DNA of 64,000 nucleotides from Symbiodinium natans (lineage: Eukaryota; Sar; Dinophyceae; Suessiales; Symbiodiniaceae), in contig CAJNDS010002148.1 in NCBI GenBank assembly GCA_905221605.1, positions 462,046 through 526,045 on the forward strand, given 5' to 3'. The notes under the pieces were generated by a model. The model saw only the letters and a list, made by a program, of their open reading frames with translations. It was not told the origin of the DNA and did no database searches. The position numbers and the translations under genes were made by a program. Positions 3,993 through 63,200 of this stretch are shown here, piece by piece. Every line of letters starts with the position of its first letter. The stretch's first letter is position 1.

Positions 3993-4387
3993 GGTTTAGG
4001 GTTTAGGGTTTAGGGTTTAGGGTTTAGCGTTTAGGGTTTAGGGTTAGGGTTGCAGGGGGTTCATGGGGGGGGTACCTATAAGCAACCTTAGGGAAGCTTA
4101 GGGAGCTTTAGAACGCTTTAACGATAGGCCCCTTGCTCTTGTTTCAGGGGTATAAGGAAGGACCCCTAGAAGGGTCCCGTAATCTTATCCCTCCAAAAAC
4201 CTAAGTAGACATAGCCTGTACGGTCCCTCATAAGGGCCCCTCCTTTAGTCCATTGATTTACTCAACCCTAAGTCCTACACCCTAAACCCTAAACCCTAAA
4301 CCCTAAACCCTAAACCCTAAACCCTAAACCCTAAACCCTAAACCCTGGAAAGAGGCATTTGGCTGCCAGCAGTGCACGTGCATCAGG

Positions 4388-6091
4388 ATGGAGTGTTTGT
4401 GGTTACGAATTTTTCTTTTAGGGTCATTTAGGGCCCTTTTCGTCGTTAATGCTTTTCAGGGTAGGGAGCTGCACGGGCAGGTTACACCGCCGAAGAGCGG
4501 ACTAGAACCGAGTGCAGCCATGTCCAAGCCTACCAGCGCTGCCCAGCAAGCCGAACTGGCGCGGTCCACACAGGCGTACACCGCCCAGAGGCAGCTGGCG
4601 ACGTCGGAAGTTTTCGCCGCGCAGCAGCGGCTCTGGATGGAAGAGAGGCGCAAGAGGGGCCCACCATCCACGACGATCTCCTCGCTCAACACGCCGGCCG
4701 AAGACGACGAGATGCAGCAAGACGCAGAGCCATCGCGCCAGGCTACACCGCAGCCGGCCACATCGCTCTTTCAGCCCATCCCGGTGGAGGGTCAGGCCGC
4801 CTTCAGTATGACAGCTGCGCAAGCGGGGGTGGATATCAACGACCACACCGCCGTTCGCAACTACATGAGCGAGAAAGTCACCACCAGACAGCAGGTCCTG
4901 GAAACCATTCGCAACTATCATGTTGGAGTAATCCGCCCCGAAGTTTACCACCTGATCAGCCAGGTCGAGCTTGTCATCGCGGGCCTGGACGACCGACTGG
5001 TTAAAACGCAGGACAATCTCAACTGGATGGTGAGTGACAACCGTGCGCAGCAGAAGAGAGAAGCAGGGCTCATGGTCGTTCTCACCGGCTTCGACCCGAA
5101 GATGGACCCTACGCAACGGCTCGAACACATCAACTGGATGATGGGGCAGGTGGAAGAGATCAAGCAGTTCCTGGTCCAGAGGATGTACAACGCCTCGGAC
5201 CAGGTCCGACTGTGGTTTCTGCAGGCTTTGCAGACAGACCCCAGTACACCGCCGGCCGGGGAAGGGAAGTGGTCGACGGTTACAACGCTCCAGTTCAAGG
5301 CCTGGGACCTGCGCCGCGCCTTCATGACTGCATATGGGGGAGGAGGAGGTACACCGCTTTGGGGCCCGCAAGGGCCAGTCAAGGGCTTCCACATCCGCTG
5401 TACACCGTCGTCGCCGCAGTTTCAGCGCAAGCTGGAGCTACCAGTGAGAGCGATTCTCTTCATGCTTAATAAGCATGCGGAGATGAAGTCTACACCGCCC
5501 AGTCCAATGTTGATTTTGTGGCGGACCCTTACTCTGATGCACCCGGATTGTGGCCGCGAATTCGACGAAAGGGCCACAGCCTGGGCTCGCATGATTTATT
5601 TCACCCAAAATGGGGAATTCAGGGGAAGGCTCGAAATCACGGCTGACCTGGCGGATATCGTCAAAGCTAAACCGCCGGAGGACGCAGAGGAAGCCACCCT
5701 CTGGGACTTTTCCTGGAATTCGGTTGCCTTTGGCATTCAGGCAGAGTTGGACAAGGCCGAAAAGGCCATCATGCAAGAGGCCCAGGCCAAAGCCAAGGGC
5801 TCCAGCAAAGGGTGGTCGATCGGAAAGGGTAAAACGCACTGGTCCAATTGCTTCATTTACTCATCGGAGTACAACCCTTTCCCGATACCCATGTCCCTAG
5901 AAGTTGTAGAGAGCGTCAGCTACAGTTGGGATGAGTATTGTGACAAAACCAATACCACCGACAAGAAGTGTGGTAGCTACTCCACGGGCACGATTTGTGG
6001 CGCCCCGCCAACGGCTACACCGCCAGCCGGAGAGCAGACAGAGCTTTCTAAGGCTGCGCCCAAAGGAGCGAGGGAGTCGGGTCGCCGTTGA
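4388..6091 (+). CDS. LINE ORF1 (gag-like RNA-binding protein, putative)
   Basis: The ORF gives 567 aa from 4388, but the first 44 residues are partly read from telomere-like DNA, so the ATG at 4520 (MSKPTSAAQQ) is the likelier start. The N-terminus is Ala/Gln-rich and charged. The middle (about residues 170-260) is helical with repeated Asn-Trp-Met motifs. A Gly-rich turn follows, then a Lys/Gly-rich segment (GSSKGWSIGKGKTH) that could bind nucleic acid, and an acidic, aromatic C-terminus with Cys pairs. I see no RRM or CCHC knuckle. In LINEs, ORF1 coats the element RNA in a cytoplasmic RNP; that role is inferred from position. The ORF ends at TGA (6089-6091), with the same frame open directly after it into ORF2. 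Confidence 0.6.
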   Translation: MECLWLRIFLLGSFRALFVVNAFQGRELHGQVTPPKSGLEPSAAMSKPTSAAQQAELARSTQAYTAQRQLATSEVFAAQQRLWMEERRKRGPPSTTISSLNTPAEDDEMQQDAEPSRQATPQPATSLFQPIPVEGQAAFSMTAAQAGVDINDHTAVRNYMSEKVTTRQQVLETIRNYHVGVIRPEVYHLISQVELVIAGLDDRLVKTQDNLNWMVSDNRAQQKREAGLMVVLTGFDPKMDPTQRLEHINWMMGQVEEIKQFLVQRMYNASDQVRLWFLQALQTDPSTPPAGEGKWSTVTTLQFKAWDLRRAFMTAYGGGGGTPLWGPQGPVKGFHIRCTPSSPQFQRKLELPVRAILFMLNKHAEMKSTPPSPMLILWRTLTLMHPDCGREFDERATAWARMIYFTQNGEFRGRLEITADLADIVKAKPPEDAEEATLWDFSWNSVAFGIQAELDKAEKAIMQEAQAKAKGSSKGWSIGKGKTHWSNCFIYSSEYNPFPIPMSLEVVESVSYSWDEYCDKTNTTDKKCGSYSTGTICGAPPTATPPAGEQTELSKAAPKGARESGRR

Positions 6092-6214
6092 TGGTTTCTT
6101 TCGGCAATTTGCCACATTCGCACTGGCCAGTCCTGGAATACACCGCAGCCCCGGTGCAGTTGGACCACACAATCCCCTCATTTAAGGCAGACGGGCCCAT
6201 TTGAAACTTTCTCA

Positions 6215-9200
6215 ATGCCCAGTCGCCGGTCCTTTTTTCAAGCGGGGCTGCCGGACCTCAAAAGGCCAGTTGCTAATTTGGGGCGAGCCCAAACAGGGGG
6301 CTACACCGCCCAAGTTGCATGTTTTGCCAGATGCAGGGCTGACATACCCCAGTACATAGGATGGGATAGATCCCCTCTTCGCAGAAGGCATTTTAGAAGA
6401 AGAAAGGCTAAACCTCCACAAAAGACCCAATTAGGACAGAGCCTCACATTCTTGGGTATAGGCATCCTCACTTGCTTTTATTACACTTCACCCAATAGGT
6501 CCTCAATGCTCATTATAGGCATGGATGCCCTCATATGCACACATTGCCTGGCCACACTGCTTCAAGCTGGACTTCACATCGCAGCTGCAAGTGCAAAAAG
6601 AGCTGGGGGCGGCTTTCAAATCTGGACTACACCGCCAGTAGATAGGAACATAGGGGACTCTTACAGGTACCTAGAGATTGTTCAAAACTCCCTAAATCAA
6701 CTCATGCATGCTCTGAATGGCAATGTTGTCACTATCTGTTTGGAGTCCTTAATAGGTCACCAACACCCCGAAATTACTGCAGCAGATCTCCCAGAGACTG
6801 AAGCTGACTTTCTTTCCCACAAGCTAAGCTTGAGCCGGAACTTTTTACTTAGTTGCAGGGTTCCACCTAAGCCAGGGGTGCCCCTCATACATCCAATTCC
6901 AGTTTTACCACAATTAGCCCCCAGACCCCGGCTACACCGCTCTGGTCGTAGGAGGGTTTTCAGAACTTCGCAAGGTTCCAAAATTTTCTTCAGCACCCAC
7001 AAAACCAGAATTCGGAATTTACATCATACTGCTAGTAAGCCTACACCGCCTCAACGAGGCTTGCCGGGTACTACCACGGTAGTCAACGAAGAGTGTCAAC
7101 CCCATGACCCTCCGCTTCATTCCCTTTTAGGTTGGGGTACCCAGTGCCGTCGCCTTCGCCGGAGATTATTCCGGCGTTGGCGAGGCACTGTTAGGGAAGG
7201 TATACCATCGGTGAGCTTGGGTAACCTACCGGTGAAGGAGAGTCAACCCTTGAAAGCAGAAGCCAGATGCAGGCGTACAAAAAATGTGGCTAGATTATTT
7301 CGACAATTAGTACTGAAAGCCGAAAACTCCTGTTCCAGGGAAAGGAAGATTCTCAAACCACAGACTACACCGCCTCTAGGGTATGGTCAGGTTTTGAGAG
7401 TGGTTGCTTTGAATGTTCAGTGCATGACGGAGTTACTTAAGCATCAGGAGGTATTAAACCTCCGGTCAGAACTATCGCTGGACATTCTCTTCCTAACTGA
7501 GACACACTCTACTTCCTACTACTCATTTCGTTCTAGTTCACACCTATTTATAGTCAATGGTACTCATAAAGATAAATGGTCAGGAGTAACCGCTGTCATC
7601 GCTCCAAAATTGATCCCATATGTCAAAAATGTTACACAGCATAGCTCAAGGATTCTACAGGTCACCATCGCGTCTTGTTCGGGGGATATCCACTTCATTG
7701 GGGTCTATGCCCCCCACGACAAATCCGACATTACCACCAAAAAGGAACCTTTCTGGAGTAAACTGCATGACATCACCTCAGCTATCCCTCTGCCGGAACC
7801 CTACTACATCATTGGGGACTGGAATGTAAGATTACAGGGTCGTTCAGAGGAAGAAAAAGACATCCTCGGACCACACATATACGGTAGGGGAAAGCAGTTC
7901 GCAAACACCCGAGACAATTCCAACCGCACGGAGTACACCGCCTTCCTTAGTAGTCAGGCCGCAGTGGACGCCCTTTCCTACAAACAGCCCAACCTCTTAA
8001 AACAAATAACCTACAGAGACAAACAAGCCCCGCCTCGCTCGTGGGACCAATTCATCTCAGACGAACTAGGATGGTTGCAACTTTGGGACAAGGTTCAGGC
8101 CCTTCCAGCCCAAGAAGATGACCTCCTGGCTGTAGTAGGTACCATACGCAATTATTTAGGGGTAGATACCCTGCCTTTTCTGGGATCCTACGCCCCAGTA
8201 GTCGACCCTCTGAGATTTCAGAGCCTGGACCGGTTAGTGGTTGCTCGTAAATGGCTTCCCACAGTCCTGCAACTAAGAGCATTACATCACAAAGGCTTCC
8301 CTAGCGACCATTTCCCTCTCTTCGCAAAAATAAGAGTCAAGCTAGGTGCCCTACCAAAACCCCCCCCAGCTAAACCGCGCTACGCCTACAAATCAGATGA
8401 GTACACCGCTAAAACCTTTAACAGGGCTGTGAGGGCTCATTATGGAGCTACAACAGTATTAACCACGACTCAACATGGTGCTCCCAAACTTCAAGTATAT
8501 ACGGACGGATCGGGCAGCCGGGGCAAATGTAGTGCCACCACGCCGGCTGGTTGGGGCTATGTAGTTTTACAAGAACAAAAGGTCGTTCACGAAGCCTCGG
8601 GCCCTGTCTGCACTAACCAAAACGCCGCCCACTACCTAGGGGCCACAGTCGGTAGCAACAACACGGGTGAACTCACTGCCTGGCTCGAGGCCGCGCTCTA
8701 TCTCTTAGGTACCCCTGAATACGTGCCAAAAGCAGTCGAATTTTGCTACGATAGCAAATGGATGCATTCTATGGTTACGGGTACAGCCCGCCCAAAGCGA
8801 CATAAGGCTTTAGTTTACCTTTCAAAACGAGTACACCGCCTTCTCTCTAAACGTACCATAATCACCTGGCAGTGGGTCAAAGGTCACACGGGCAACCAGT
8901 ACAACGAAAAAGCGGATGAACTGGCGGAAACAGGGAAAACCACAGCGCAATTCCAAGGAGGACGCTCAGAGGCTCACACCTTTCTTTCCCCGGCTAACCT
9001 CCCTCATATAGAGGAGGCTCTTCCACCGCTCGAAGGCACACTAGATGAATCAAACAAACAACTGGTTAGCGCCTTGTTACAGGCGGAGGAAATTACCTTC
9101 CAACGTCAGGAATTCGCCCCTAGAGCAAACTGGATGCCACCAGAATTAGCCACCAGGCTGGAACAAATCAAAACTAGGCGCAGGGCGCATGATTACACCG

Positions 9201-11155
9201 CTCACCAGGATTATAAAAAGGCCAAGGCCGAGGCCCGGAAAATAAAGCGGGAATGGCTCAGAACGCAGCTGTACATGGATAGTCAATCAGGCTCCACCAA
9301 ACTGTGGCAAGCGACCCGCAAGCTAAAAACAGGATTTAGAGCCAGGCGTACACGACTCAAACAAAACGGAAGGCCTGTCCCCTGGAGCAAAACGCACCAC
9401 GTCTTCGCTGACCACCTCTCCAACAAACAATGGGCCCCGTCCACAGTCACGGAGGAGGAGCTTCAACTCTTAAGGGAATCTCCCCCTTTACATCCTCCAT
9501 CGAGTACACCGCCTTCCAAATTTACGCTAGAGGAACTTGAAGACATCCTATTTCAGCTCAAAAAAGGAAAAGCCCCCGGCCCGGATAATGTGCGAACAGA
9601 ATTGGTTATGTTGCTGGACCACTTCGGTAAACTACGCCTACTACAAATTCTTAACGAATCGTTCGAACAACGCTCAGTTCCATCATCGTGGAAAGAGGCC
9701 ATGATAGTCTCTATTTACAAGGGAAAGGGAGCAGATTCCGATCCTGCTAACTACCGCCCTATCTCCCTATTAAACGTCTTCTACAAGGTCTACGCCGCCC
9801 TCTTACAACGCAGACTAGCGCGCGCCCACGACCATCATTTACGTACAACGCAATACGGGTTTCGGCGTGACAAGTCGACACGGGACCCCCTCTTTATATT
9901 ACGCAGGGCACAGGACTTGGCTATTAAAACGGGTACCTCCCTGCAATTACTGTTTCTAGACTGGAAAATGGCGTTCGATAAAGTTGACCACACCGCCATG
10001 GCAATAGCGCTCGAAAGGCTAGGAGTACACCGCCACTATGTCGAAGTTATTACTGACATCTACACGGATCCTACCTTCACGGTTAAAGGAATGCATGGCG
10101 ACACTACTACGGCTACACCGCATACGGGAATACGGCAAGGTTGCCCCCTTAGCCCCTACCTCTTCATCATGGTTATGACGGTACTCTTCCACGACATAGA
10201 TTCCAGACTACTACGCCAAGGTGTCCCCACGAACTCCTGGTCAATCGGCAAACCAGTCTACGATTTGGAATATGCTGACGACACACTTTTATTGGCAGTT
10301 ACACCGCCACAACTAGAAGAGCTATTACGTACAGTTCAGGTAGAGGCCTCGCTGTACGGTATGATTCTCAACCCCGAAAAAACAGAACTGCTAATCCGAC
10401 CTGAATCTCCAGCGACTATTTCGTTTATAGATGGAACAGAAGTCCCGAGTACACCGCAAACTAAATACCTAGGGTCACAAATCTCGTGGAGCTCAGTTGC
10501 CAACACGGCAATACAGGCACGCAAAATAAAGGCTAAAGCAGCCTACATGAAATTGCAGCCCTTATGGAGAAGTAGAGTAAATGACAAGATCAAACTCCAC
10601 ATCTACCATGCGGTAGTTGTATCCACACTCACATACGGATTGGACTCGCTCACTCTCGAAATGAGACACCTGAAAACCATAGACGCATGGTACCACCAGC
10701 ATTTAAGACGATGCATAGGTATTAAGGCATCATATTACTCACATATCTCCAACAGAACGGTCTGGGAAAGAGCCCATAAGCCAGTAGTTCCATCGCAGCA
10801 GCTCCTCTCACAACAGCTACAGCAACTGGCTAAAATACTGAGTACACCGCCAACGAACCCCATTCACCATGTAGTTTTCTCACCCGGAATAAAGGATAGG
10901 GTTAAGTTTACCAAAGGAATCAAGAGGGGCCACCCCCAAAGATATTGGTTAGAGGTAGTGGAAGAAGCCGCATTAACAGCTTTCAAAGACTTCCTTACCG
11001 TAAGCTCCCAGGTACACCGCTCAGACCTCTTAGGCCTAAAGCAGTATCTTTCCAAACACCCCGAGTACGCCCTGCATCTGGCAGCTGCGCCTACGCGCCA
11101 GCCAAATATTTTTCAGAAGCACGGAAAGAGTCTGGGATGCGCATGGCAGCCGTAA
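6215..11155 (+). CDS. LINE ORF2: endonuclease, RNase H and reverse transcriptase
   Basis: A 1646-aa polyprotein that nicks target DNA and copies element RNA by target-primed reverse transcription. After about 390 poorly recognisable residues comes an exonuclease-endonuclease-phosphatase domain (about 391-705): VVALNVQCM, LFLTETH, IIGDWNVRL and SDHFPLF carry the expected Asn, Glu, Asp/Asn and Asp-His. RNase HI follows (about 760-900): YTDGSGS, GELTAWLEA, CYDSKWM and NEKADEL give the D-E-D-D set. Reverse transcriptase comes last (about 1110-1420): GKAPGPDN, LDWKMAFD, GIRQGCPLSPYLF and YADD at residue 1353. RNase H between endonuclease and RT is unusual; most LINEs have it after RT. The ATG at 6215 is only the first in-frame Met; the frame is open back to the TGA at 6089. 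Confidence 0.88.
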   Translation: MPSRRSFFQAGLPDLKRPVANLGRAQTGGYTAQVACFARCRADIPQYIGWDRSPLRRRHFRRRKAKPPQKTQLGQSLTFLGIGILTCFYYTSPNRSSMLIIGMDALICTHCLATLLQAGLHIAAASAKRAGGGFQIWTTPPVDRNIGDSYRYLEIVQNSLNQLMHALNGNVVTICLESLIGHQHPEITAADLPETEADFLSHKLSLSRNFLLSCRVPPKPGVPLIHPIPVLPQLAPRPRLHRSGRRRVFRTSQGSKIFFSTHKTRIRNLHHTASKPTPPQRGLPGTTTVVNEECQPHDPPLHSLLGWGTQCRRLRRRLFRRWRGTVREGIPSVSLGNLPVKESQPLKAEARCRRTKNVARLFRQLVLKAENSCSRERKILKPQTTPPLGYGQVLRVVALNVQCMTELLKHQEVLNLRSELSLDILFLTETHSTSYYSFRSSSHLFIVNGTHKDKWSGVTAVIAPKLIPYVKNVTQHSSRILQVTIASCSGDIHFIGVYAPHDKSDITTKKEPFWSKLHDITSAIPLPEPYYIIGDWNVRLQGRSEEEKDILGPHIYGRGKQFANTRDNSNRTEYTAFLSSQAAVDALSYKQPNLLKQITYRDKQAPPRSWDQFISDELGWLQLWDKVQALPAQEDDLLAVVGTIRNYLGVDTLPFLGSYAPVVDPLRFQSLDRLVVARKWLPTVLQLRALHHKGFPSDHFPLFAKIRVKLGALPKPPPAKPRYAYKSDEYTAKTFNRAVRAHYGATTVLTTTQHGAPKLQVYTDGSGSRGKCSATTPAGWGYVVLQEQKVVHEASGPVCTNQNAAHYLGATVGSNNTGELTAWLEAALYLLGTPEYVPKAVEFCYDSKWMHSMVTGTARPKRHKALVYLSKRVHRLLSKRTIITWQWVKGHTGNQYNEKADELAETGKTTAQFQGGRSEAHTFLSPANLPHIEEALPPLEGTLDESNKQLVSALLQAEEITFQRQEFAPRANWMPPELATRLEQIKTRRRAHDYTAHQDYKKAKAEARKIKREWLRTQLYMDSQSGSTKLWQATRKLKTGFRARRTRLKQNGRPVPWSKTHHVFADHLSNKQWAPSTVTEEELQLLRESPPLHPPSSTPPSKFTLEELEDILFQLKKGKAPGPDNVRTELVMLLDHFGKLRLLQILNESFEQRSVPSSWKEAMIVSIYKGKGADSDPANYRPISLLNVFYKVYAALLQRRLARAHDHHLRTTQYGFRRDKSTRDPLFILRRAQDLAIKTGTSLQLLFLDWKMAFDKVDHTAMAIALERLGVHRHYVEVITDIYTDPTFTVKGMHGDTTTATPHTGIRQGCPLSPYLFIMVMTVLFHDIDSRLLRQGVPTNSWSIGKPVYDLEYADDTLLLAVTPPQLEELLRTVQVEASLYGMILNPEKTELLIRPESPATISFIDGTEVPSTPQTKYLGSQISWSSVANTAIQARKIKAKAAYMKLQPLWRSRVNDKIKLHIYHAVVVSTLTYGLDSLTLEMRHLKTIDAWYHQHLRRCIGIKASYYSHISNRTVWERAHKPVVPSQQLLSQQLQQLAKILSTPPTNPIHHVVFSPGIKDRVKFTKGIKRGHPQRYWLEVVEEAALTAFKDFLTVSSQVHRSDLLGLKQYLSKHPEYALHLAAAPTRQPNIFQKHGKSLGCAWQP

Positions 11156-12231
11156 AAAAAACCCTGGAAAGGGGAGGGGGAGGTTCCCGAGCAAACGCCA
11201 GGGAACCAAGGAGGCTCCCCCCCCCCCCCTTGTGTTCCTAGGCTCCTGTAGGGACCTGATTCACTAAAGTTTAGGGTTCAGGGTTTAGGGAATGCGTTTA
11301 GGGTTCAGGATTTAGGGCTTTAGTTTAGGGTTTCGGGCTTTGGAACAGAACCTTCCGCTTCTTGCCTGCACGTAAACGCGAAAGCCAAGAGGCTCCTGAC
11401 GGCCTAAACCCATAACTAAACCCTAAACCCTGTTTAAGCAGTTTAGGCCTTAGGTTTTCAGGATTAAGGGTTTAGGGTTTAGGTCTTCTACAACCCGCAA
11501 GTTTTCAAAGCCCTGAGATCCTAAACTTCAACATGCTAAAGGCCTAGATAAAGGGCGCCATAACCATAGATATAGGGTTTAGGGTTTAGGGTTTAGGGTT
11601 TAGGGTTTAGGGTTTAGGGTTTAGGGTTTAGGGCCCTCAACCCCCCAAAACAAGAAGATCCGGGCCAAGGAATCCTCTGCAAACGATCGCCAACCTCGTG
11701 GATGACTTCTTCTCCTGGCTCGGGCCTGAGTTGCCCAAAAAATTCGGGTTTAGGGTTTAGAGTTTAGGTTTTAGGGTTTGCTGTAGGACGGTAGGGTTTA
11801 AGCTTTAGGCGTTTAGGCCGGAAAAATGTAATTTTAACCCTGAATCCCAAACAGAAGAAGGGTCTAGGGTAGGGTTTAGGGTTTAGGGTTTAGGGTTTAG
11901 GGTTTAGGGTTTAGGGTTTAGGGTTTAGGGTTTAGGGTTTAGGGTTTAGGGTTTAGGGTTTAGGGTTTAGGGGTTTCATGTTATGGGCCTTCGGGCTTAG
12001 GGTTCAGCGCCTTTAGACCCCTAAGCCCTCAACCCGGACATGGCTAGGTCCTCTAAGTCTCCAGGCTATGACCCTTCTTATGGGCCGGATGACGCCCTAC
12101 ACCCTGCACCCTACATCCTAAGCCCTACGCACTCTACTTAACGGCTTGGGCAGAGGGGAGGACTGCTTCGGTAAGGCCTAAACCCTAAACCCGAAACCCG
12201 AAACCCTAAACCCTAAACCCTAAACGGAGAG
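11156..12231. repeat. Telomere-type repeat mosaic downstream of the LINE
   Basis: After a short LINE 3' tail with C- and G-runs, TTTAGGG arrays dominate. The cleanest are at 11575-11632 and 11869-11970, the latter about 14 units. Unique spacers of 50-120 bases lie between. Apart from the exon-like windows listed separately I see no gene. Confidence 0.75.
11686..11748 (+). CDS. Candidate exon between telomere-type arrays
   Basis: A 21-codon open window reads IANLVDDFFSWLGPELPKKF. The amphipathic, protein-like composition contrasts with the repeats around it. It could lie between the two membrane segments of the TMEM43-like gene or belong to another gene. No clear splice donor. Confidence 0.25.
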
Positions 12232-19455: not shown

Positions 19456-20370
19456 TCAAACCTTCAGTAACTCAAAACGCAAATATGATCTGTCAAAGCC
19501 TTCAATATAATAATAGCTCTGACCCAATTTCTTATCAATTCTCTCAATGGTGTAAATATCCTGCGACCAGTTGCTTATCCTTTCCTTTTCGTTTGGTTTC
19601 CGTTTCCGGAAGATCTTAACCTCACCACCAACATTCAGATCAGGATAAACGCGATTCCGTTTAGCACCAGCGCTCAAATTCATTTTCACCTTCAATTCGT
19701 TACTCGGTTGTCTGGCATCTTTCGGGATGAATCCTGAAGCCGAATGTTTCATTTTATTGTTATAAGTCACTAATATTTCAAAAATATAATCTGTCCACTG
19801 AATATTGTCCTTTGCTTTTTTCTTCTCATCCGCCTCAACACGGCGATATGGTGAATCCTTAAAGGTTCTAGTAGCTCTCTCGCTGAAGTTCGGGTGCGCC
19901 CTCGTTCTATGGTGTTCTATGCCTCGATCTTGCAAATACTTTTGTATGGACTCTGTGTTCAAAGCACCCTCGTCATCTGAATAAACTATTTTTGGCTTCT
20001 TTCCCATCTTGTGTAAGCACTCAATCATCCCACTTGCGACATCGCCCTCTTGTTTACTTTTAATAGCCACTACATGCATGAACTTATCAAAGATATCTAT
20101 CATAAGCATTCCGACCTTAAATTTTTGATCTCTCAAGTCGTTTATAAAGAATAAGTCCATCTGATATTCGTAGGCTGAATGTGGAGCGACAAAGCTGTTT
20201 GAACCTACGAGCTTACGCTTTTGTTCAACATTTTTCCTGAAAAACTTATTGATATCGCCCATAGTGATGGTGTTGTCTTTCTCCCGTGCTTCTGCTAAGG
20301 TTCTCTGTTCAGATCCATACCCGGCCCGATCAAAATACACATCATTAATGATTTTTTGTTTCTCACTCAT
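19456..20370 (-). CDS. Retroviral-type (rve/DDE) integrase of Polinton-like virus
   Basis: A 304-aa protein that would insert the viral genome into host DNA. The catalytic core runs about residues 60-180: Asp72 in YQMDLFF, Asp132 in VYSDDEGALN, and Glu164 in PNFSERATRTF give a D,D,E triad with slightly short final spacing. An N-terminal basic helix (KFFRKNVEQKRK) precedes it, and the C-terminus has a small SH3/chromo-like beta region (GGEVKIFRKRKPNEKERI). Zinc-binding HHCC residues are not evident. It is one of the few intact viral ORFs. Upstream, to its right, lies an AT box (ATATAATATATATATAT), a possible promoter. It is separated from the other viral genes by the 10-kb repeat block. Confidence 0.88.
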   Translation of the reverse strand: MSEKQKIINDVYFDRAGYGSEQRTLAEAREKDNTITMGDINKFFRKNVEQKRKLVGSNSFVAPHSAYEYQMDLFFINDLRDQKFKVGMLMIDIFDKFMHVVAIKSKQEGDVASGMIECLHKMGKKPKIVYSDDEGALNTESIQKYLQDRGIEHHRTRAHPNFSERATRTFKDSPYRRVEADEKKKAKDNIQWTDYIFEILVTYNNKMKHSASGFIPKDARQPSNELKVKMNLSAGAKRNRVYPDLNVGGEVKIFRKRKPNEKERISNWSQDIYTIERIDKKLGQSYYYIEGFDRSYLRFELLKV

Positions 20371-23640: not shown

Positions 23641-23850
23641 CTTTGATTAAAAAAATTACATAATTTAAACAATTTAAATAGTTCAAATAATGTAAATAAC
23701 TTATATAGTTTAAATAGTTTAAATCCGAAAAGAGGGGGGAACCACCCTCCCCGCCCCCTAAGAATTAAATAATTTAAATAATTTCAATCCGAAACCTCCC
23801 CGTCGTACTTAAATTAATCATTATTAAATTCTTGGGAGGGGGGGAAGCTC
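23641..23850. other. AT-rich spacer
   Basis: TTTAAATAATTTAAA-like sequence with two G-runs, similar in style to the satellite. No gene. Confidence 0.5.
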
Positions 23851-24510
23851 CGGGCAAAACTTGGCCAAATCGAGCCGCGCACTTCTCATCGCATACGAAG
23901 AGCTGCCCGATTTGGCCAAATTTTGCCCGAAGGCTGCCCGGCAAAATTTGGCCAAATCGAGCCGCGCCTTTCTCATCGCCTACGAAGAGCAGCCCGATTT
24001 GGCCAAATTTTGCCCGAAAGCTGCTCGGCAAAATTTGGCCAAATCGAGCCGCGCATTTCTCATCGCCTACGAAGAGCAGCCCGATTTGGCCAAATTTTGC
24101 CCGAAAGCTGCTCGGCAAAATTTGGCCAAATCGAGCCGCGCATTTCTCATCGCCTACGAAGCGCAGCCCGATTTGGCCAAATTTTGCCCGAAAGCTGCCC
24201 GGCAAAATTTGGCCAAATCGAGCCGCGCCTTTCTCATCGCGTACGAAGAGCCTGATTTGGCCAAATTTTGTCCGAAAGTTGCCCGCCAAAATTTGGCCAA
24301 ATAGAGCCGCACCTTTCTCATCGCCTACGAAGAGCAGCCCGATTTGGCCAAATTTTGCCCGGAGGCTGCCCGGCAAAATTTGGCCAAATCGAGCCGCGCA
24401 TTTCTCATCGCGTACGACGAGCAGCTCGATTTGGCCAAATTTTGCCCGCAGACTGTCCGGCAAAATTTGGCCAAATCCAGCCGCACGTTTCCCATTGTTG
24501 GGCCCTTTGG
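23851..24510. repeat. 87-bp hairpin minisatellite, seven copies
   Basis: TCTCATCGC recurs at 23884, 23971, 24058, 24145, 24232, 24316 and 24403: an 87-bp period with one 84-bp unit. Each unit holds a near-perfect palindrome, TTTGGCCAAATTTTGCCCG opposite CGGGCAAAATTTGGCCAAA. Because 87 is a multiple of 3, long ORFs stay open in several frames on both strands (a 271-aa FGQI-repeat ORF on the minus strand, 230 aa on plus). That pattern argues for a repeat and against a gene. Confidence 0.85.
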
Positions 24511-24626
24511 GGCCGTTTTTTTGAGGCCGAATTGGGCCCAAAGGGCAAATGTTGCCCAAAATTAGCCAAAGGAGAAAAAAAGAGCCCACTTCATAAACTG
24601 TATAAACCTTATAAGTGGTTTTATAT

Positions 24627-25130
24627 AATTCTTTTACCCCACCCCCCCCAGCCCTCCTCCACCTTTCGTGCCCTCTACATCAAAAACGAAGGCTTGTACT
24701 TGCACTTGTACTTGTAATGTACTCTGATAGGCGCAGAGTGCGCCTATGTACTTGTAATGTACTCTGATAGGCGCAGAGTGCGCCTAGGTCACTTGAGAAG
24801 TTTTGAGTGGTGCAGCAAACCCAGCTGATGCTCATGATTTCTCTGTCTCCCTATATATAGGCGATGGAACGGGTGTCCTTTTTGATCGTTTTCTGCATCT
24901 TCAAGGGAGGAAAAAGGACCCCCCAAGAAGGAAAAGTAACATAAGAAAAAGGGAGGGACATTGAAGAGCTCCTCTTTTTATTTAGTCATTCCCTGTCCTC
25001 TCTTCTTATCTGTTGTTTTTCTTAGTCGCTTCAAAACGCAAAATAAGGGAAAGGCGATTCCCTGAAGAGGAAGAAGGGCACCTATCTGTGAATAGCAAGA
25101 TTGGCTTTTTCTAATTAGGGAGAGACAAGG
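24627..25130. repeat. Dispersed repeat copy 2 (about 500 bp)
   Basis: A second copy of 23165-23635, with an internal duplication of TACTTGTAATGTACTCTGAT and following bases (about 33 bp). It leads straight into the pyrimidine-rich array. Confidence 0.75.
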
Positions 25131-32710: not shown

Positions 32711-34972
32711 GTGGGTGAAATAAATAAGCATTATTATTTATATAACCCTAAGACAGACAAAGACGACAAATACTTTTATACCCCGGAAGTGGCTACGGAG
32801 ATAGATGTCAGAAAAGCTTATACTTCGGCATTTAACAAGATTTCTGAAATCCCCGTGTTCACTCAGTTTGATATCTGGAAGCCCTTCAACGACGATGGCA
32901 ATCATCTCACTGATTACCACGATTTAACTCTCTACTTAGTGAAGCCAACCAAGAGAAGCTTATTCTTTAATAAAGCCTACACTTTAGTATATGGTAAGTT
33001 TTTAAAACACTTTACGAAGCAGTGTAAGATAATCTACTATAAACAACCGTCCAGAGTATACAAGGTGGACTACAGAAAGATCACAGCCGAGTTATGGAAA
33101 ACCGACATCTCCGACAAACTAGCCGAAGACATCAGAATAAAGAAATTAATAGCCAATGTTAATTTCGGGCTACTTGAGAGGAACACGAATAAAGCTCATA
33201 AAAGTTATGCCTTTGACACTCTAAGGGAAGCCTTATATTATCAAAACAAGATCGGCGGAAAGGTTAACAGAATCTCGGGTATGTATGTTGATCAGGTTGA
33301 GAACATTAATGGCGAAACGGACTTTGTAGAAAAGGAGATGGACAAAAAATATTATTGCTTAACAGTGACGGATACAGCCACCCTACGAAACGGATATATA
33401 TACATAAAAGAGTTACTATTACAACACCATAACTTTAAAATGCACACCGACTACACAACATTAACAGAAAATCATATAGGAGTATGGAGTGTTAAGACCG
33501 ATGCCTTCGTGATCAGGAAGGAGCATCTGAGAAGAGCCAAGAACCTAATAGAGTTTAATGAGCATATCGGGGGGTGGAGACACGAAAAGAGTAAAAACAT
33601 AGCGGAACCTACAGAGCTGTGGAAACCAAAACAGAACGAACTGATCCGGCTACCGGTGTTTAAGAACGACACCCGACCAATAGACGACGAATGGGACACG
33701 GAAAGCATAGCAAAGGACATCGTAACGCATAACCCTATTATGATCCGATCCAAGTATGCAGGAGGAGGCAAGTCACACATAGCGAAGCATTTCAGCAAGA
33801 TGTTAGGTTACAAAACTCTGTTCGTAGTTCCCCAGAATAGTTTATCGCAGAATATAGACGATGATGCGGTAACCACTAATAAGTTTTTTGCCATCCCAGT
33901 TGGCGACGGGGAGCTTCGCTCCCCCTCAGGGCGAAGCCGTGACGGGGAGAAATTGCCCGAGTTTGATCATAGTAGTTATAACTGTATAGTCTTTGATGAG
34001 ATTTATATGAATGGAACGCACATCCTAAATGGGATCAGAGAGTTTGTGAAAAAGAACCCCAATAAGATCATAGTCGGGGCTGGTGATGTAAAACAGCTAC
34101 CACCCATTCAAGACCTAACCAACACAAGGAAGCCCGACGAATACGCCGACGAATGTATTAATCAGATCTTCAAATATAATGTTATGCATACCATTCGTAA
34201 GAGACTCGGGCCACAGGGTGATCCGATAGCAGAAGCCAACCGAAAAATCTTAGATATGATGTATGATGACATCTGGGTGTATAAGATATCTTTAGATGAG
34301 TTCGTTCGCAAGTATTTTAAAACAACAGACGGCCTAACAGAATCTCATAAGAACATAGCCTATACTAATATGAGATGCCTAGCAGTGTCAAATGCGATCA
34401 GAAAGAGCTTGGGTAAATCAGATAAGTATGAGGTCGGTGAGATCTTAATATGCAGATTATATAAGAACACGAATAATGTAAAATTCAATGTGAACTACAG
34501 GTTTAGGATCGTAAGCATATCCAAGAATATATTTATACTAGAGAATGTTAAACCAAAGCAACAGTATATGATGGACATAGCTACCTTAGACAAACATTTC
34601 AGATACGACTACTGCACTACGTGCCATTCTGCACAAGGGGCTTCAATTGACGGCAAGATCGTTATACACGAGTGGGAGAAATCGCATTTGGTAACTCGTG
34701 AGTGGTTGTGGTGCGCCTTGACCAGAAGCACGGATGTTAATAATGTGTTGTTTTATGAGAGCACCGCCGAACCTCAAAACGAACTGAACGAAACAACCTT
34801 GCGAAAATACCTAAACAATAAGATAGAAGCATACAAGCAACAAGATCAAAAAGCAAAGAGAGAAATAGATAAAAGTAAGTATGTTGATCCCGAGTGGTTT
34901 ATGAAAAGAATCTACGGGCATTGTAACAACTGCGGTTGTAAGTTTGAATTTGAGATTAAGAACGGCCTCTGA
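32711..34972 (+). CDS. Family B DNA polymerase fused to SF1 helicase (main open segment)
   Basis: 753 codons, no ATG (the GTG at 32711 merely follows the shift). The polymerase part has motif A at residues 32-39 (DVRKAYTS), motif B at 144-153 (KLIANVNFG) and motif C near 261-266 (VKTDAF, Lys in place of the usual first Asp). It would be the replicative, probably protein-primed, polymerase. A superfamily 1 (Pif1/RecD-like) helicase follows in the same chain: Walker A AGGGKSH at 350-356, Walker B IVFDE at 426-430, GDVKQLPP at 458-465, motif V CHSAQGASIDG and motif VI WCALTRS. A C-terminal zinc motif (HCNNCG) runs into TGA at 34970, but the frame stays open to 35071 with HHVDNCEAWCKLCNC, completing a Cys/His cluster, so the TGA is probably a nonsense mutation. 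Confidence 0.82.
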   Translation: MGEINKHYYLYNPKTDKDDKYFYTPEVATEIDVRKAYTSAFNKISEIPVFTQFDIWKPFNDDGNHLTDYHDLTLYLVKPTKRSLFFNKAYTLVYGKFLKHFTKQCKIIYYKQPSRVYKVDYRKITAELWKTDISDKLAEDIRIKKLIANVNFGLLERNTNKAHKSYAFDTLREALYYQNKIGGKVNRISGMYVDQVENINGETDFVEKEMDKKYYCLTVTDTATLRNGYIYIKELLLQHHNFKMHTDYTTLTENHIGVWSVKTDAFVIRKEHLRRAKNLIEFNEHIGGWRHEKSKNIAEPTELWKPKQNELIRLPVFKNDTRPIDDEWDTESIAKDIVTHNPIMIRSKYAGGGKSHIAKHFSKMLGYKTLFVVPQNSLSQNIDDDAVTTNKFFAIPVGDGELRSPSGRSRDGEKLPEFDHSSYNCIVFDEIYMNGTHILNGIREFVKKNPNKIIVGAGDVKQLPPIQDLTNTRKPDEYADECINQIFKYNVMHTIRKRLGPQGDPIAEANRKILDMMYDDIWVYKISLDEFVRKYFKTTDGLTESHKNIAYTNMRCLAVSNAIRKSLGKSDKYEVGEILICRLYKNTNNVKFNVNYRFRIVSISKNIFILENVKPKQQYMMDIATLDKHFRYDYCTTCHSAQGASIDGKIVIHEWEKSHLVTREWLWCALTRSTDVNNVLFYESTAEPQNELNETTLRKYLNNKIEAYKQQDQKAKREIDKSKYVDPEWFMKRIYGHCNNCGCKFEFEIKNGL
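33905..33949. repeat. GC-rich palindromic insertion inside the helicase
   Basis: GACGGGGAG occurs at 33905-33913 and again at 33941-33949, 36 bases apart. Between them lie GGGGAGCTTCGCTCCCC (7-bp stem) and a second pair GCTTCGC / GCGAAGC. It is GC-rich inside an AT-rich gene, adds exactly 12 codons between Walker A and Walker B, and keeps the frame. It resembles a tiny palindromic mobile element with a 9-bp flanking duplication. Confidence 0.6.
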
Positions 34973-41954: not shown

Positions 41955-44053
41955 ATGATAAACCACCCAGCGTCATTAGATGGAACGAATACAATTTATG
42001 CCCACGAGTTTTATCAAATATCAAGCACAGGCATATCAACTTTAGATAATACATATGCCAAAATCGGAGAAGGAGGAGCAGGTGGAGGAGGCTATACCAC
42101 AACCGAAGTAGATGCTCTAATTACGGTAGTTCAAACTGACATAACGGCAGTGAAAGACGATTTAAGGGACAATTGTTTAAATCATACAAATTTAGCATTG
42201 AATTATTATAACAAAACCGAAGTAGGAGCAGAGGTTACAACATTAGAAGGAAGTATTCAAAGTGTTTCAGATACTTTAACTAACGATTATCTTAGCACAA
42301 CACAACTACCATTACAATATTATGACAAAACCACATCAGACGGACGTTACTATACAAAAACCGAAGTTGATACGGACATATAAAAAAATCGGATGTATAT
42401 ACAAAAACTGAAATTACTGATAACCACTATACCAAAACACAAATAAGTCCTAATAAATATGATAAAGCTGATGTTTATACAAAAACTGAAATTACTGATA
42501 CCCATTATACAAAGACCGAAGTTGATACGAACATATATAAAAAAGCCGATGTATATACCAAAACTGAGATTACTAATAACCAATATACAAAGACCGAAGT
42601 TGATACGAACATATATAAAAAGGCAGATGTTTATACAAAAACTGAAATTACTGATAACCACTATACCAAAACACAAATAGATGATAATAAATATGATAAG
42701 GTGAATGTATATACAAAAACCGAAGTTGATGCGTTAGTAGCGGGAGTTGGTGGAGACCCTAATAATATTACTGGTGATTTAACGGTTACCGGAGACATCC
42801 GGGTAACCGATGCTAGTACCAGTTTTGAAAGATATGTTAATGCTGTTAAATCTAATGTTTCATTGGATTTAACGATAAACGAAACTGCCTCGGCAATTAG
42901 ATTGATAAACGGTGAAAATTTTGCTAATGATACAAATGTTTATTTTGAATGTAATAACACCACAGCAAATACAACGATGTTTAAACCGCTTCATTGTAAA
43001 GATACGGCTACTTTTACAGGTGCCGTCAGTCTTGAAAACCAAACATTGAATACACCAAGCGGTTCAAGTTTGTATATTACTAAAGCTGGAACAGGTGAAA
43101 CTATGAGAATTATAAATGACAGCAGAAAATTAACATTTGATGGCACTGTCATACATGCTTGCACTAATACAGGCACACCAACTCACTTGGCGTTAAATAT
43201 GTTAAATGGGGATGTTCGTATGAACCAGTTAGGGGTCGGTGGAAGCGCTGGGTCGTTTAAATTTATTGTAAGTGGTGGTTCGGCGTGTTTTTACCAAGGA
43301 TTAAGAAGCGACAACCCAACTACATTAAACGGAAATACGTATGTATCAACGAAGAATAGAATATATCAACGAGCAGATGCTAATAACAGTTTAAATATTA
43401 TTAGTGAAAAAGAAATTAATCTTTCATTACAGACAGACCGCGACGCAGACCCCGACAACTCAAGTATAGCCATTCAAATTGAAACTACTTGGGGAATTAC
43501 TTTTAACAAAAAAGCAACGGCTAATGAAGATTTGTTATTGTTGAAAAATTTAGCATTAAACAGTGAAAATAATACAATAGGTGAGTTTTATACAGGTTCG
43601 GGTGATGATATGTTATTAACAAATTCAGTTTCAACACAGGGAATACGCTTGCGCATAGGGACAACGGATATATGTGAAGTAAGTTCAACGGGACTACACG
43701 TTACAGGAGCAGTTACAGAAACATCAGATAAACAATTGAAAGAGAACATAAAGGAAATAGACAGTAACAAATGCGTTGAGATGATTAAATACATTAAACC
43801 TAAAACATACAACTTTATAGGTAACGATAAAAAATGCGTGGGTTATATTGCTGACGACTTCAAAACTAAGAAAATGCCAGAAGAATGGGATAATATTATC
43901 TTTGAAAGTAAAGACGGTTATTTAAGAATGGACTATAATAAAACCACGCCGTTGCTTTGGTCTGCTTTACAGAATACATTAAAAAGAATTGAAAAGTTAG
44001 AAAAAGAAATCAAAGCTTTAAAAGGAAGTAAAAACAACAGTGAAGGAAAATAA
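41955..44053 (+). pseudogene. Fibre-like protein with YTKTEVD repeats and S74-type chaperone, one frameshift
   Basis: About 699 codons in two frames. The first 142 codons end at TAA 42381 in a seven-A run (42382-42388); one missing base there restores the second frame, open to 44053. The N-terminus (NHPASLDGTNTIYAHEFYQI) may anchor to the capsid. The shaft has many repeats of the type YTKTEVDT-NIYKKADV, a trimeric beta/coil fibre pattern known from phage and algal-virus spikes. A beta-rich region (NNITGDLTVTGDIRVTDAST) follows. The C-terminus is an intramolecular chaperone like endosialidase S74: TSDKQLKENIKEI with the Ser-Asp cleavage site, VGYIADDF, and a final coiled coil (LQNTLKRIEKLEKEIKALK). 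It would trimerise the fibre and cut itself off. Probable host-recognition spike. Confidence 0.78.
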
Positions 44054-44321: not shown

Positions 44322-45131
44322 TTAATCATCTTCTTCTTGTATTTCAATATATTCTTCAAACCTTTTCATAAACATTTTATTAATGTCCGACTGCATTAAA
44401 TTAACGAACAGAAAACTAAAAGGGTCCTCCGTGGCAATATTATATATCTCTAATAAAATTTGCTTTGCTTGGTGAAGACTTTTCATATCAGCCATTGCTT
44501 TTTTACTTATCAACACTCCCGATAATTCATCTAGAACTGCTTCAACTTCTTTATAGTTTCGTAGTTTGAAAAACACTAACTGTCTGGAATTGGTTCTTAT
44601 CGTAGTGCTTAGACCGTTATATTTCTGCGATGAGCTTATTATATTCACTCCATAATGTCTTGCTTTAATATGCAAAGCATTTAACAAATTGTTATGTTTA
44701 GCAAATGATGCTTGGTCTATAAAATCATCCACCAAGAACAACACCGAGAACAATTTAGTTTCTCCATTTTTCTTTTGGAACTCGTTAATCTGATGTTGTA
44801 AATTTAATACCTTCTGCATTTCATCAATATTGAAAGTATCAAAATATACTTTTTCTTTCTTTGTGTCAATTTTTAGAGTATTTTCAATATAATCTTTGAC
44901 TGGTGTCCAAACTGGATCCAAGTCAATAGAACTGGACCAAATAAAGATACGACTAAAACAACCTCTGTATATATTCAAAATCAAATTTGATAGTAAAACT
45001 GTTTTACCACTTCCTGATTGTCCTGTAATGACCATTGAAAACGGAATGCGGGGCGCCATTTCGTATTTACTTTGTGTGAATGTGTATTCCTTCGTTTTAT
45101 ATGGTTTCACTAACGGTATATTGTCGTTCAT
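44322..45131 (-). CDS. Genome-packaging ATPase (FtsK/HerA, A32-like)
   Basis: A 269-aa intact ORF. It would pump viral DNA into the capsid using ATP. Walker A ITGQSGSGKTVLLSN (residues 37-44 core), Walker B LFLVDDF (131-137), a SSSQKYNGLSTTIRTNSRQL stretch corresponding to the sensor and arginine region, and a C-terminal helical part ending in acidic EEDD. Length and motif order match PLV, virophage and NCLDV A32-type ATPases. The promoter region lies in the AT-rich gap to 45173, shared with the divergent small gene. Confidence 0.88.
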   Translation of the reverse strand: MNDNIPLVKPYKTKEYTFTQSKYEMAPRIPFSMVITGQSGSGKTVLLSNLILNIYRGCFSRIFIWSSSIDLDPVWTPVKDYIENTLKIDTKKEKVYFDTFNIDEMQKVLNLQHQINEFQKKNGETKLFSVLFLVDDFIDQASFAKHNNLLNALHIKARHYGVNIISSSQKYNGLSTTIRTNSRQLVFFKLRNYKEVEAVLDELSGVLISKKAMADMKSLHQAKQILLEIYNIATEDPFSFLFVNLMQSDINKMFMKRFEEYIEIQEEDD

Positions 45132-45343: not shown

Positions 45344-45703
45344 ATGCAAGACAAAGAAGAAAACGAACCAAACGGAAATTTACACATTGACAAAGGCAGT
45401 GTCAGTTGTAATTTATGTAGGTGTGGTAGAAAATCGTTTCATAAAGGGACCAGAACAACAACAGACAAAGAAGGCAACAAAGTAGTAAATGAAATTGAAG
45501 AAAGGTCTTCGTGGCGCGTTGGCGGTCGTGGAGTTACACCCGATGGAAACAAAATCTTTGAAACAAGCAATAAAGAAGATAAAGAAGACATAGATACTGT
45601 AAGCACGGGATGGGGTTCTAGGTTGCCTACACCGCCAGAATTGGTAGATCGTGTAGGGAAGTTGGAAAAGGAATTAGAAGAATTGAAAAACAAAATCGCT
45701 TAA
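45344..45703 (+). CDS. 119-aa protein with N-terminal Cys cluster
   Basis: MQDKEENEPNGNLHIDKGSV then CNLCRCGRKSFHKG (possible zinc or metal site), a polar middle, and a short Leu/Lys coiled coil at the end (VGKLEKELEELKNKI). Five bases after the previous gene and five before the next. Function unknown. Confidence 0.5.
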   Translation: MQDKEENEPNGNLHIDKGSVSCNLCRCGRKSFHKGTRTTTDKEGNKVVNEIEERSSWRVGGRGVTPDGNKIFETSNKEDKEDIDTVSTGWGSRLPTPPELVDRVGKLEKELEELKNKIA

Positions 45704-60237: not shown

Positions 60238-63200
60238 TGTTCTATTTAAATTGTGCGTGTGTGTGTATATATATGTTACAGTTCATCAAGCACGGCAAGA
60301 GTACCTTCCGCACGTCTTGTATTTGTGGACAAGCGAAAACATATCATACTCAGCTCTCTGTACCTCAACCCAGTCGTGTGTGACTAAATGCCAGCTCTCT
60401 TTTTCGTGGCTTCCTGAGACACCCAATGTTATTGTTTGTGTCTCTGTGTGTGTGTGTGTGTGACACAGAAAATGTCACTGTTTTTCTTAATGGTGCAGAG
60501 CATCTTGTCGTTCCGTGCGTTTATCATTATGTATGTTTGGTCTGCACGATGCGAGAAACACGGTTCCTTGTCTTACTCGAAACTCAACCTTGAGGCGTTA
60601 TAGTCCTAATTCCTAGTTGATAGAATTTACAACAGCCAGCGCGTTCCTGCAACGTTGCTGCACGTGCCTCCTGCAGGCACGTTTTATGTCAAAGTTGTTT
60701 TCAAGTCATCAATGCTGGCACTATGCCCAAGTCGTGGCCTTGAAGTTCAAGTTTAAGATAACGCTTGATGGAAATTTTAGGAATGGTTGTTGGGATGGGC
60801 AGATTGGCAACTCATACGGTTCCACGTCCTGGTTATCCCGATTCTGAGCATATGTTTTGGCTTGTTGTCTGGTTGACAGGTTTAGGGTTTAGGGTTACAG
60901 CCCCCAAAGGCTCAATTGCTAGCCTTAAACCCTTATGTATTCCCCAACTTTCTCCTTCGCCTCGTTGATTTTTTCGATGCTGTTACTATTTATTACCGGG
61001 GCAACTGGGCACTGCGATTGCCACGACAAGCAGCATCAGTTTCGACTTTTGACGACGTGCGAGCCCTGTAGTTCCGACCAGCCGTAAGCATAAGTTTTGC
61101 AGGCACTACCGGATGCAAGAACTTGTTATCCGATTATGTTAGGTGAATCTTGAACATTCCATCGCCGTTGTCTTCCAGTACGCAAGACAGACACTTTGCT
61201 CAGATCCTCGAGATGGAGCCAATATGGCGCGAGGCACACGTTGCTTTCGACAGCAAGAGTGTTTTCATAGAAAGAGCTTCTGCGTCTAGACGGGTGTGCA
61301 ATCTTTGTCGTAAATCAGGACCAGCGAAAACATTTCGAGATTTTGGATACTTCCAATGTTCGTGTGCTTGTGTGCCCACGGCGACAGATCCAGAGAATAT
61401 CTTAGCGCGCAATTGGCGCGGCGCTTCTCAGGGTGACGGCACCAGGCTTTCAGGTTTCATGACATGAGGCAAAGGCAAATTGCGACAGTGTGAGAAATGT
61501 AGTAAGGGGCAGATTTCACTCGCGCCAGTACCACCGTTGCATTGCCTTGCCCAGATGTGTGAGTACAGGAAGCTGCCGAAGACCTCCGCGGCCGTGAGCT
61601 GCTGGAGGATTAATAAGCGGGCGCATTGTGGCCGATAGGCTCATTTTGCTTGATCCACGTATCGGCTAAACAGCCTGAATGCCAAACACGTGGCAGATGT
61701 AGGACGGCAAGGGAGCCTCGTTGTGTTGTTTTTTCTCAAATCCTCCCAATTTGAACTCCCAAGACTGTTGGATCCTCGATGGTTTGTCTGCTTACAGACT
61801 CTGATTCCACACGGATTTTCGCGCGGCAACAGAATCATTGTTGTGGCGTACAGTGAAAATTTCATGAGGGTTTGTTCCTAAACAGGAATTATGGGACGGA
61901 TCCAAGTCGAGCGGTCCGCTTCGCACCTTCAATCACAGAGTTTGCAAGCTGCAAGCCTTGCTAGTTTCTTGGCTCGCAGCAGCCGGGGCAACCGACTTTT
62001 CTCAACGTGCCGCCGAGAAGTCTCAATTTATTGGAGTTGATGTGGACATCAGCCAGCTCTTTTTCTATACCCAATTGGGACATCGCAATCTCTAGCCTAG
62101 GCAACAGTTAATTTACCCTAAAAAAACCTTAAACAACCCTCGCCCCTGAACCTTACGGACATCTTCTGGCGAAGCGGTCTGCGCGTATCATGTGTCAGAT
62201 GCCGAGAAGCTTCGTGCTTATGCCTCAGTAGAACACCCGGTCAGAAGTTGCCGTTGCGGGGGTAAGTCCTCGTCCAGTGGTAAGTCGGACAAGTGGAACA
62301 GTTGTTCAAAGGACCTGCCTGCAACTCTCCGTGACTCTTCGCTTCACCCTTCGGATGCTAGCGCAGCACCTGCTGAGAAAAAATCTGTCCTGCTGCTCAT
62401 ATCTGGTACTGGGCAGGGCTGATGCCAGTGCAACCGATTGTTTTGTTTCTCGACAGCTTGGTCGAAGCAATAAACCACGTAATCTTAACGCGACCAGCGT
62501 TCATCGAGTTTATGAACCTCAGTCTTCCGTATATGGATGCGTGCGATTGGGAGGACTGCGACTGTGACGGTTTTTGCAGCGCATCAGTTGTTCACTCACT
62601 TTAAAATTTAGTAATGATCCATATGCTTTCGAGGAAAGATTTGTCTGGCTTGAACGAGAAGGTGTTCCAGTGGCCACATGGCGTGAATGATTGTCGCTTG
62701 TCGGCGCATGGAAGACACTTGTACTTTTAGGCTTCTTCGGCAAAATGGCACGCGGGCTGGCTCCACACACTCTTGCACTGAAGTGCCAGCTGCACTGAGT
62801 ATACACACACACAGTGATGAGTCATTACTTGAGTTGTGTATAGTTGTTTGCGCAGTTAAGGCGAGAGGTTTCTGAACTTCTGCGTTGATCTGACGACCGA
62901 GAAAGTCAAGGGCATCTTTTGTTCGGGCCGGCGTCATTTTTTCGTCTACGTCATGTATGAAAGCCAGGTCCTTTACATGCCACGCGGTGTAATGCACCAG
63001 CATTTCTGAGCATGAACACGCACCTCCGAACGAAATACAGAACACTTTACTGTGACATTTGAGGCGAACATAAACGGCCATGTTTTTGTACGACCTCGGC
63101 ATTGCGGACAGGCCAAACACGCTTGTTGAAGAAAGCGTATGCATCGACGCACGCAGTGAGCTGATGCGCAAATGATTGCCGTGCGTGTTGCTCTGTGTTT

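Follow-up and report, generated by a model that had tools for sequence, protein, structure and literature searches.

Our analyses of a 64-kb window (64,000 nucleotides, positions 462,046 to 526,045 of contig CAJNDS010002148.1, forward strand) from the dinoflagellate Symbiodinium natans identify a long interspersed nuclear element (LINE) along whose sense strand the octamer TACACCGC is repeated 24 times, in all three codon phases and in the non-coding linker between the two open reading frames (ORFs). In this copy the number of sites, its surplus over what a codon-preserving null gives, the pattern of strand and phase, and the evenness of the sites are plain features. The signal is real, strand-specific and dispersed and, judged from the proteins of its relatives, kept in the form of clade dialects. 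The repeat constitutes a nucleic-acid signal, most likely one read on RNA, and we consider the chances about even that it serves self-recognition by the element's own protein.

Occurrence of the octamer along the LINE

The LINE spans 6806 bp on the + strand (4353..11158). A first-pass annotation, based on the letters of the window alone, had listed 24 starts of TACACCGC, and all of them are exact copies on the + strand, antisense copies within the element numbering 0. Fourteen copies, rather than the 15 originally counted, are read in the Thr-Pro phase, at 4483..4490, 4744..4751, 5245..5252, 5350..5357, 5491..5498 and 6016..6023 in ORF1 and at 6628..6635, 7042..7049, 7366..7373, 9505..9512, 10114..10121, 10300..10307, 10450..10457 and 10843..10850 in ORF2. 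The five copies in the Tyr-Thr-Ala phase (4577..4584 in ORF1; 6302..6309, 7934..7941, 8402..8409 and 9194..9201 in ORF2) and the four in the His-Arg phase (6933..6940, 8832..8839, 10026..10033 and 11013..11020, ORF2) agree with the earlier description, as does the location of the remaining copy, 6139..6146, in the non-coding linker. Over both ORFs the octamer spells 5 of 5 YTA, 4 of 4 HR and 14 of 18 TP peptides. The near-variants TACACCGT (5401..5408, ORF1, Thr-Pro phase) and CACACCGC at 9989 likewise stand where they had been placed, whereas the other CACACCGC begins at 4844 and not at 4834. Both CACACCGC variants are included in exact sense copies of GACCACACCGCC (4841..4852 and 9986..9997), the form assigned below to the HTA clade of relatives, of which 0.0009 copies were expected in the LINE.

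Expected counts of TACACCGC in the LINE were 0.12, 0.26 and 1.06 under first-, second- and third-order Markov models respectively, the first matching an earlier estimate of about 0.1 and the last already drawing on pieces of the repeat itself. Shuffling in which codons were swapped among identical amino acids, so that the protein and the exact codon usage were kept, yielded 1.57 copies on average and never more than 7 in 5000 trials, against the 23 observed in the two ORFs; this null, set beforehand as a possible refutation, thus falls short of the observed count. Once TACACCGC was masked, the next-commonest octamer reached at most 4 copies in the LINE. Outside the LINE there is no excess, with 2 copies in about 57 kb, both strands counted. 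The single copy previously noticed there is genuine but lies at 45628 instead of 45626, in sense orientation and beside an A32-like packaging ATPase gene, and a second, antisense exact match occurs at 62984.

With its flanks included, the motif is about 12 nt long and can be written G-R-N-TACACCGC-H: the 24 copies have G at -3 in 20 (p 1e-9) and a purine at -2 in 21 (p 2e-4), and none has G at +8. The sense copy at 45628, around which no LINE remnant was found, shares the G at -3 and carries C at +8 (GCCTACACCGCC). Gaps between copies in the LINE range from 88 to 568 nt and are more even than chance placement would give, both by their coefficient of variation (p 0.0025) and by their minimum (p 0.00025). 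RNA folding around the sites revealed neither a common structure nor presentation in stem-loops, the mean unpaired probability being 0.54 at the sites, 0.45 at random positions and 0.57 for the octamer set at random positions.

Footprints of the octamer in related proteins

Relatives of the LINE are known here from their proteins, and their presence, dialects and concerted differences are accordingly read from amino acids only. A first protein search returned 82 proteins, P0001-P0044 being the most ORF2-like, and a total of 92 related ORF2 proteins were examined for footprints, i.e. the places able to encode each of the 65,536 octamers in three phases were compared with amino-acid composition. 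Some relatives carry Symbiodinium names. As a calibration, TACACCGC ranks 5 in the ORF2 and ORF1 of the window itself. Among the nearest ORF2 relatives (52-61% identical) it ranks 1 in P0002 and P0004, 2 in P0010, 7 in P0003, 8 in P0038, 9 in P0005, 15 in P0041 and 22 in P0006, and in the shorter, 98% identical P0001 it ranks 74. When the scan was confined to columns without a window site, P0010, P0004, P0041, P0038 and P0003 were still extreme and P0002, P0005, P0006 and P0007 were less so. In 48 out-group LINE proteins the motif footprints stood at expectation. In proteins chosen by type, sense footprints exceeded expectation 3- to 6.6-fold, whereas antisense footprints, at 0.1 to 1.6 times, were near background; this favours RNA or single-stranded cDNA as what is read.

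Scans of viral contigs with the window ORF2, the ORF2 alignment, P0033, P0034, the ORF1 alignment and P0022 detected no relative. Genome contigs yielded one distant relative (L001, 33% identity), on a contig filed under a bacterial metagenome-assembled genome and probably representing eukaryotic contamination. It contains TACACCGC on neither strand, and its repeated words fall mostly at about 287-700, outside the reverse transcriptase frame, making it uninformative for or against the signal. That segment is a tandem repeat on TTTCAATTGAT upstream of the LINE-like reverse transcriptase frame.

Clade dialects and concerted differences

In distant ORF2s, DHN/HNA or DHT/HTA are the most over-represented tripeptides of the whole proteins, as exemplified by DHN in P0027 (7 times, p 2e-11), HNA in P0032 (8 times, 1e-10) and DHT in P0029 (8 times, p 4e-11) and P0040 (9 times, 1e-11). 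The dialect GACCACACCGCC was deduced from DHTA/TTPP footprints, with TTP as the tripeptide of the companion phase, and the dialect GACCACAACGCC from DHNA/TTTP footprints, with TTT in that role; both are variants of the 12-mer found in the window. YSA/YSS footprints, such as TACTCCKC would leave, mark a further clade. When the dialect labels are mapped onto a tree of 53 ORF2s, 12 changes are needed, against 32.3 when labels are shuffled, and 9 of the 10 YTA-labelled rows belong to one ten-row group that includes the window, the tenth being an out-group row. A third protein search, with P0028 as the query, supplied 48 more family members (P0157-P0204), of which 46 were counted (at least 45% to the nearest earlier row) and 2 dropped, and these repeat the dialect pattern. 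A single host, Symbiodinium sp. CCMP2592, has proteins of two dialect types (P0203 and P0129), though on few sites.

Differences between relatives are linked across codon phases. In HTA-type rows nearest to HNA-clade rows (P0165, P0166, P0176 and P0182), and in the reverse case (P0170), the phases switch together. Over 60 rows, HNA>HTA was accompanied by TTT>TTP in 17 instances and by TTP>TTT in 4, and HTA>HNA by TTP>TTT in 33 and by TTT>TTP in 0, an association whose p value of 1e-10 is overstated because the rows are related. An alignment of 46 of 59 rows, 16 of HNA type and 30 of HTA type, the 13 mixed rows being dropped, contains eight columns with sites in both types, four opposing HN[AS] to HTA and four opposing TTT to TTP, in which the expected state occurs 71 and 105 times, the opposite state once per set, and other residues make up the remainder; as the 46 rows were typed on their HNA, HTA and TTT counts, this part is partly circular. 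The third phase, which was unused for typing, gives PQR:PHR ratios of 13:2 and 6:14 (p 0.0016) and so leans in the same direction. A single-nucleotide difference within the word, C or A at its position 8, explains these differences across codon phases, and a protein-level cause does not. The earlier proposal that protein sequence fails to account for the repeat is thus strongly supported, by the codon shuffle together with the concerted multi-phase footprints. The core CACACCGCC presumably resembles a conserved stretch of small-subunit rRNA; mimicry of rRNA is nonetheless unlikely, because the other dialects depart from CACACCGCC.

The case is made on clade totals, the out-group control and the concerted columns, the significance of individual proteins being mixed. 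Besides the protein-only view of the relatives and the circularity just mentioned, several observations weigh against a signal kept in dialects and read by ORF1p. P0007 (rank 430) and P0020/P0021 are without a clear dialect, and footprints are weaker in ORF1 relatives, the nearest of which (P0084-P0096) are nearly confined to the Thr-Pro phase, with YTA in 1 of 13 (P0093) and TACACCGC ranks of 15-1174. The two-phase score of motif-type octamers exceeded all 12 local shuffles in 12 of 41 proteins, the window ORF2 not among them, and Pro-rich poly-C octamers frequently led in this test. Independent pairs on a masked tree (n=4) had the second phase unchanged in a mean of 2.9, a result that is not significant and has no power, and PQR and PHR barely exceed expectation in the later-fetched proteins (9 against 5.6 near HNA, 7 against 6.0 near HTA). 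The coexistence of dialects in one host depends on few sites, and the predicted structure of ORF1 is of middling quality (pLDDT 73, pTM 0.44).

Structure of the element

The LINE is flanked by a 13-bp target-site duplication, AAACCCTGGAAAG, identical at both ends (4340..4352 and 11159..11171, + strand), from which its bounds were taken, the 3' bound being uncertain by a few bases within an A run. Such a duplication without long terminal repeats marks a non-LTR retrotransposon, and ORF2 residues 1177-1423 match the reverse transcriptase family RVT_1 of Pfam (PF00078, E 8e-35). ORF1 (4388..6091, +, 567 aa) gave no Pfam match at E 0.1; its model places an RRM-like domain at about residues 218-344, preceded by a long helix (167-199), and human L1 ORF1p is among the fold matches. 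ORF2 (6215..11155, +, 1646 aa) carries an endonuclease-like domain (399-548), RNase H (758-907) and the reverse transcriptase, in that order. The first of these aligns with PF03372, the apurinic-type endonuclease family, at E 6e-4 and 20.1 bits, under the cut-off of 24.5, and the same family is annotated in many of the aligned ORF2 relatives in the range P0002-P0025 (precomputed annotation). The copy is intact-looking in its sequence. Practically no 3' untranslated region exists, the ORF2 stop being followed by about three A and then by the target-site duplication (11153-11171). A CCCTAAA array lies immediately upstream of the LINE (4270-4352), and the duplicated target starts with one such heptamer; TTTAGGG and CCCTAAA abound in the window (260 and 285 copies), which, with the Symbiodinium names of some relatives, points to a dinoflagellate host. 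The dinoflagellate spliced-leader pattern had no match anywhere in the 64-kb window.

Possible readers of the sites

We infer that the sites are read as RNA and not as DNA, that their reader comes from the element itself and is ORF1p, and likewise what they are for. In the scenario that we favour, by a modest degree of belief, the octamers would be dispersed self-recognition sites on the sense RNA, written in clade dialects and read by the element's own protein. The LINE transcript would carry dispersed predicted binding sites of about 12 nt (G-R-N-TACACCGC-H), maintained by selection over its whole length, and each clade of this dinoflagellate LINE family would write its own form (TACACCGC, GACCACACCGCC, GACCACAACGCC or TACTCCKC). 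An element-encoded protein, for which ORF1p with its RRM-like domain is the best candidate, would recognise and coat its own transcript at many sites while passing over the RNAs of other LINEs and of the host, the outcome being a sequence-written cis-preference and the assembly of ribonucleoprotein particles (RNPs). Among the roles first suggested for the octamer, sites spread along the RNA to bind a protein of the element itself appear to fit best, and a small-RNA target or splicing-silencing signal accounts poorly for clade dialects.

A less probable, though still serious, alternative is that the sites are read by a host RNA-binding factor acting in nuclear export, stability, translation or the suppression of splicing in a long intronless RNA, in which case the element would display them for good handling and the dialects would mirror different hosts or host paralogues. 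Dispersed and even sites on the sense strand would also suit a host RNA-handling protein, but the two dialect types in proteins of Symbiodinium sp. CCMP2592, few as their sites are, and the lack of an excess of TACACCGC in the window outside the LINE argue against it. Transcription-factor, chromatin or recombination sites across the element, i.e. a function of double-stranded DNA, are distinctly unlikely: the length of the sites would fit a DNA-binding protein, but all 24 copies of TACACCGC and both copies of GACCACACCGCC share a single orientation, and the footprints of relatives show the same imbalance between strands.

The exact 8-nt core on the sense strand might also suggest seed sites for a small or antisense RNA whose guide carries GCGGTGTA. 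We give this little credence, since a silencing target would be expected to be lost and not retained 24 times, and the G at -3 and the 12-nt variants reach beyond a seed. Still less credible is a protein-level constraint, such as a Thr-Pro or Tyr-Thr-Ala peptide motif or linker repeats written with biased codons. The Thr-Pro phase does account for 14 of the 23 coding copies, often in Pro-rich stretches, and most ORF1 relatives share the Thr-Pro footprint alone; on the other side stand the low yield of the same-protein codon shuffle, the use of three phases plus a non-coding linker copy, and nucleotide-level differences linked across phases in relatives. A mutation or gene-conversion bias writing the octamer, in favour of which nothing was found, can be virtually dismissed, as the gain or loss of sites in relatives consists of residue differences without gaps in the columns inspected and the dialects are clade-specific.

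Comparison with known systems

In double-stranded genomic DNA, DNA uptake sequences (DUS) lie on either strand, a feature missing from the LINE with its 0 antisense copies. The DUS dialects of the Neisseriaceae track the phylogeny and separate lineages from one another as barriers (PMC3630211). The LINE sites share with them a short exact tag in many copies, a proposed recognition of own nucleic acid and clade-specific variants (PMC3630211), the latter found here through tree clustering and concerted columns, in proteins only. DUS are, however, a double-stranded-DNA signal of transformation in bacterial genomes (PMC3630211), whereas the present sites belong to a eukaryotic LINE, are sense only and are probably read as RNA. 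The packaging signals of single-stranded RNA viruses are dispersed sites proposed to bind the virus's own structural protein for assembly (PMC7793301). Many sites on one RNA, kept between relatives, are common to both (24 sites here, the relatives being seen by protein footprint), but the LINE sites are linear and near-exact, no structural context was found for them, and their binding by a reader is putative. In their proposed working the LINE tags resemble DUS dialects and dispersed packaging signals, and they are a member of neither.

Among retrotransposons, L1 likewise has its ORF1 upstream of an ORF2 with endonuclease and reverse transcriptase (PMC10202459), and the L1-type ORF1 protein, in which an RRM domain follows a coiled coil, may have a counterpart in the present ORF1, modelled with an RRM-like domain behind a long helix. 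Cis-preference of L1 can arise without sequence-specific RNA binding (PMC10202459), in contrast to the sequence-written recognition that the present pattern implies. An RNase H on the N-terminal side of the reverse transcriptase, as in our ORF2, has been called unique to the oomycete Utopia elements (PMC4640811); these carry a restriction-like endonuclease, unlike the apurinic-type endonuclease-like domain that precedes RNase H and reverse transcriptase here. SymbioLINE-Dnmt of Symbiodinium is likewise a two-ORF dinoflagellate LINE, but has a DNA methyltransferase in its ORF1 (PMC5890265), whereas the present ORF1 has no Pfam match. No description of a comparable LINE signal was apparent in the open-licence literature searched, and among the matches listed for papers containing the exact motif strings none was on retrotransposons by title.

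Other features of the window

Virus-like genes are scattered over 19456-45131 and comprise an integrase core (19456-20370, below cut-off), a helicase-like gene (32711-34972), an S74 endosialidase chaperone (42701-44053) and the A32-like packaging ATPase (44322-45131), a set that we take to resemble a Polinton-like element. At 23774-24717, open frames on both strands are built of a repeated KFGQI-like unit. The open frames at 1048-1855 are presumably similar to mitochondrial cox1, and probably represent a nuclear mitochondrial fragment.

Conclusions

It has long been asked by what means LINE proteins select their own RNA. That this LINE family writes its identity into its RNA, as dozens of near-exact 12-nt dialect tags read by ORF1p such that each lineage assembles only its own transcripts, is a proposal to which we lend slightly less belief than doubt. 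If true, dialect swapping would make the choice of own RNA directly testable in a LINE family, one RNA signal would shape the coding sequence of a retrotransposon in all reading frames, and a sequence-written cis-preference would evolve in the manner of DNA-uptake dialects.
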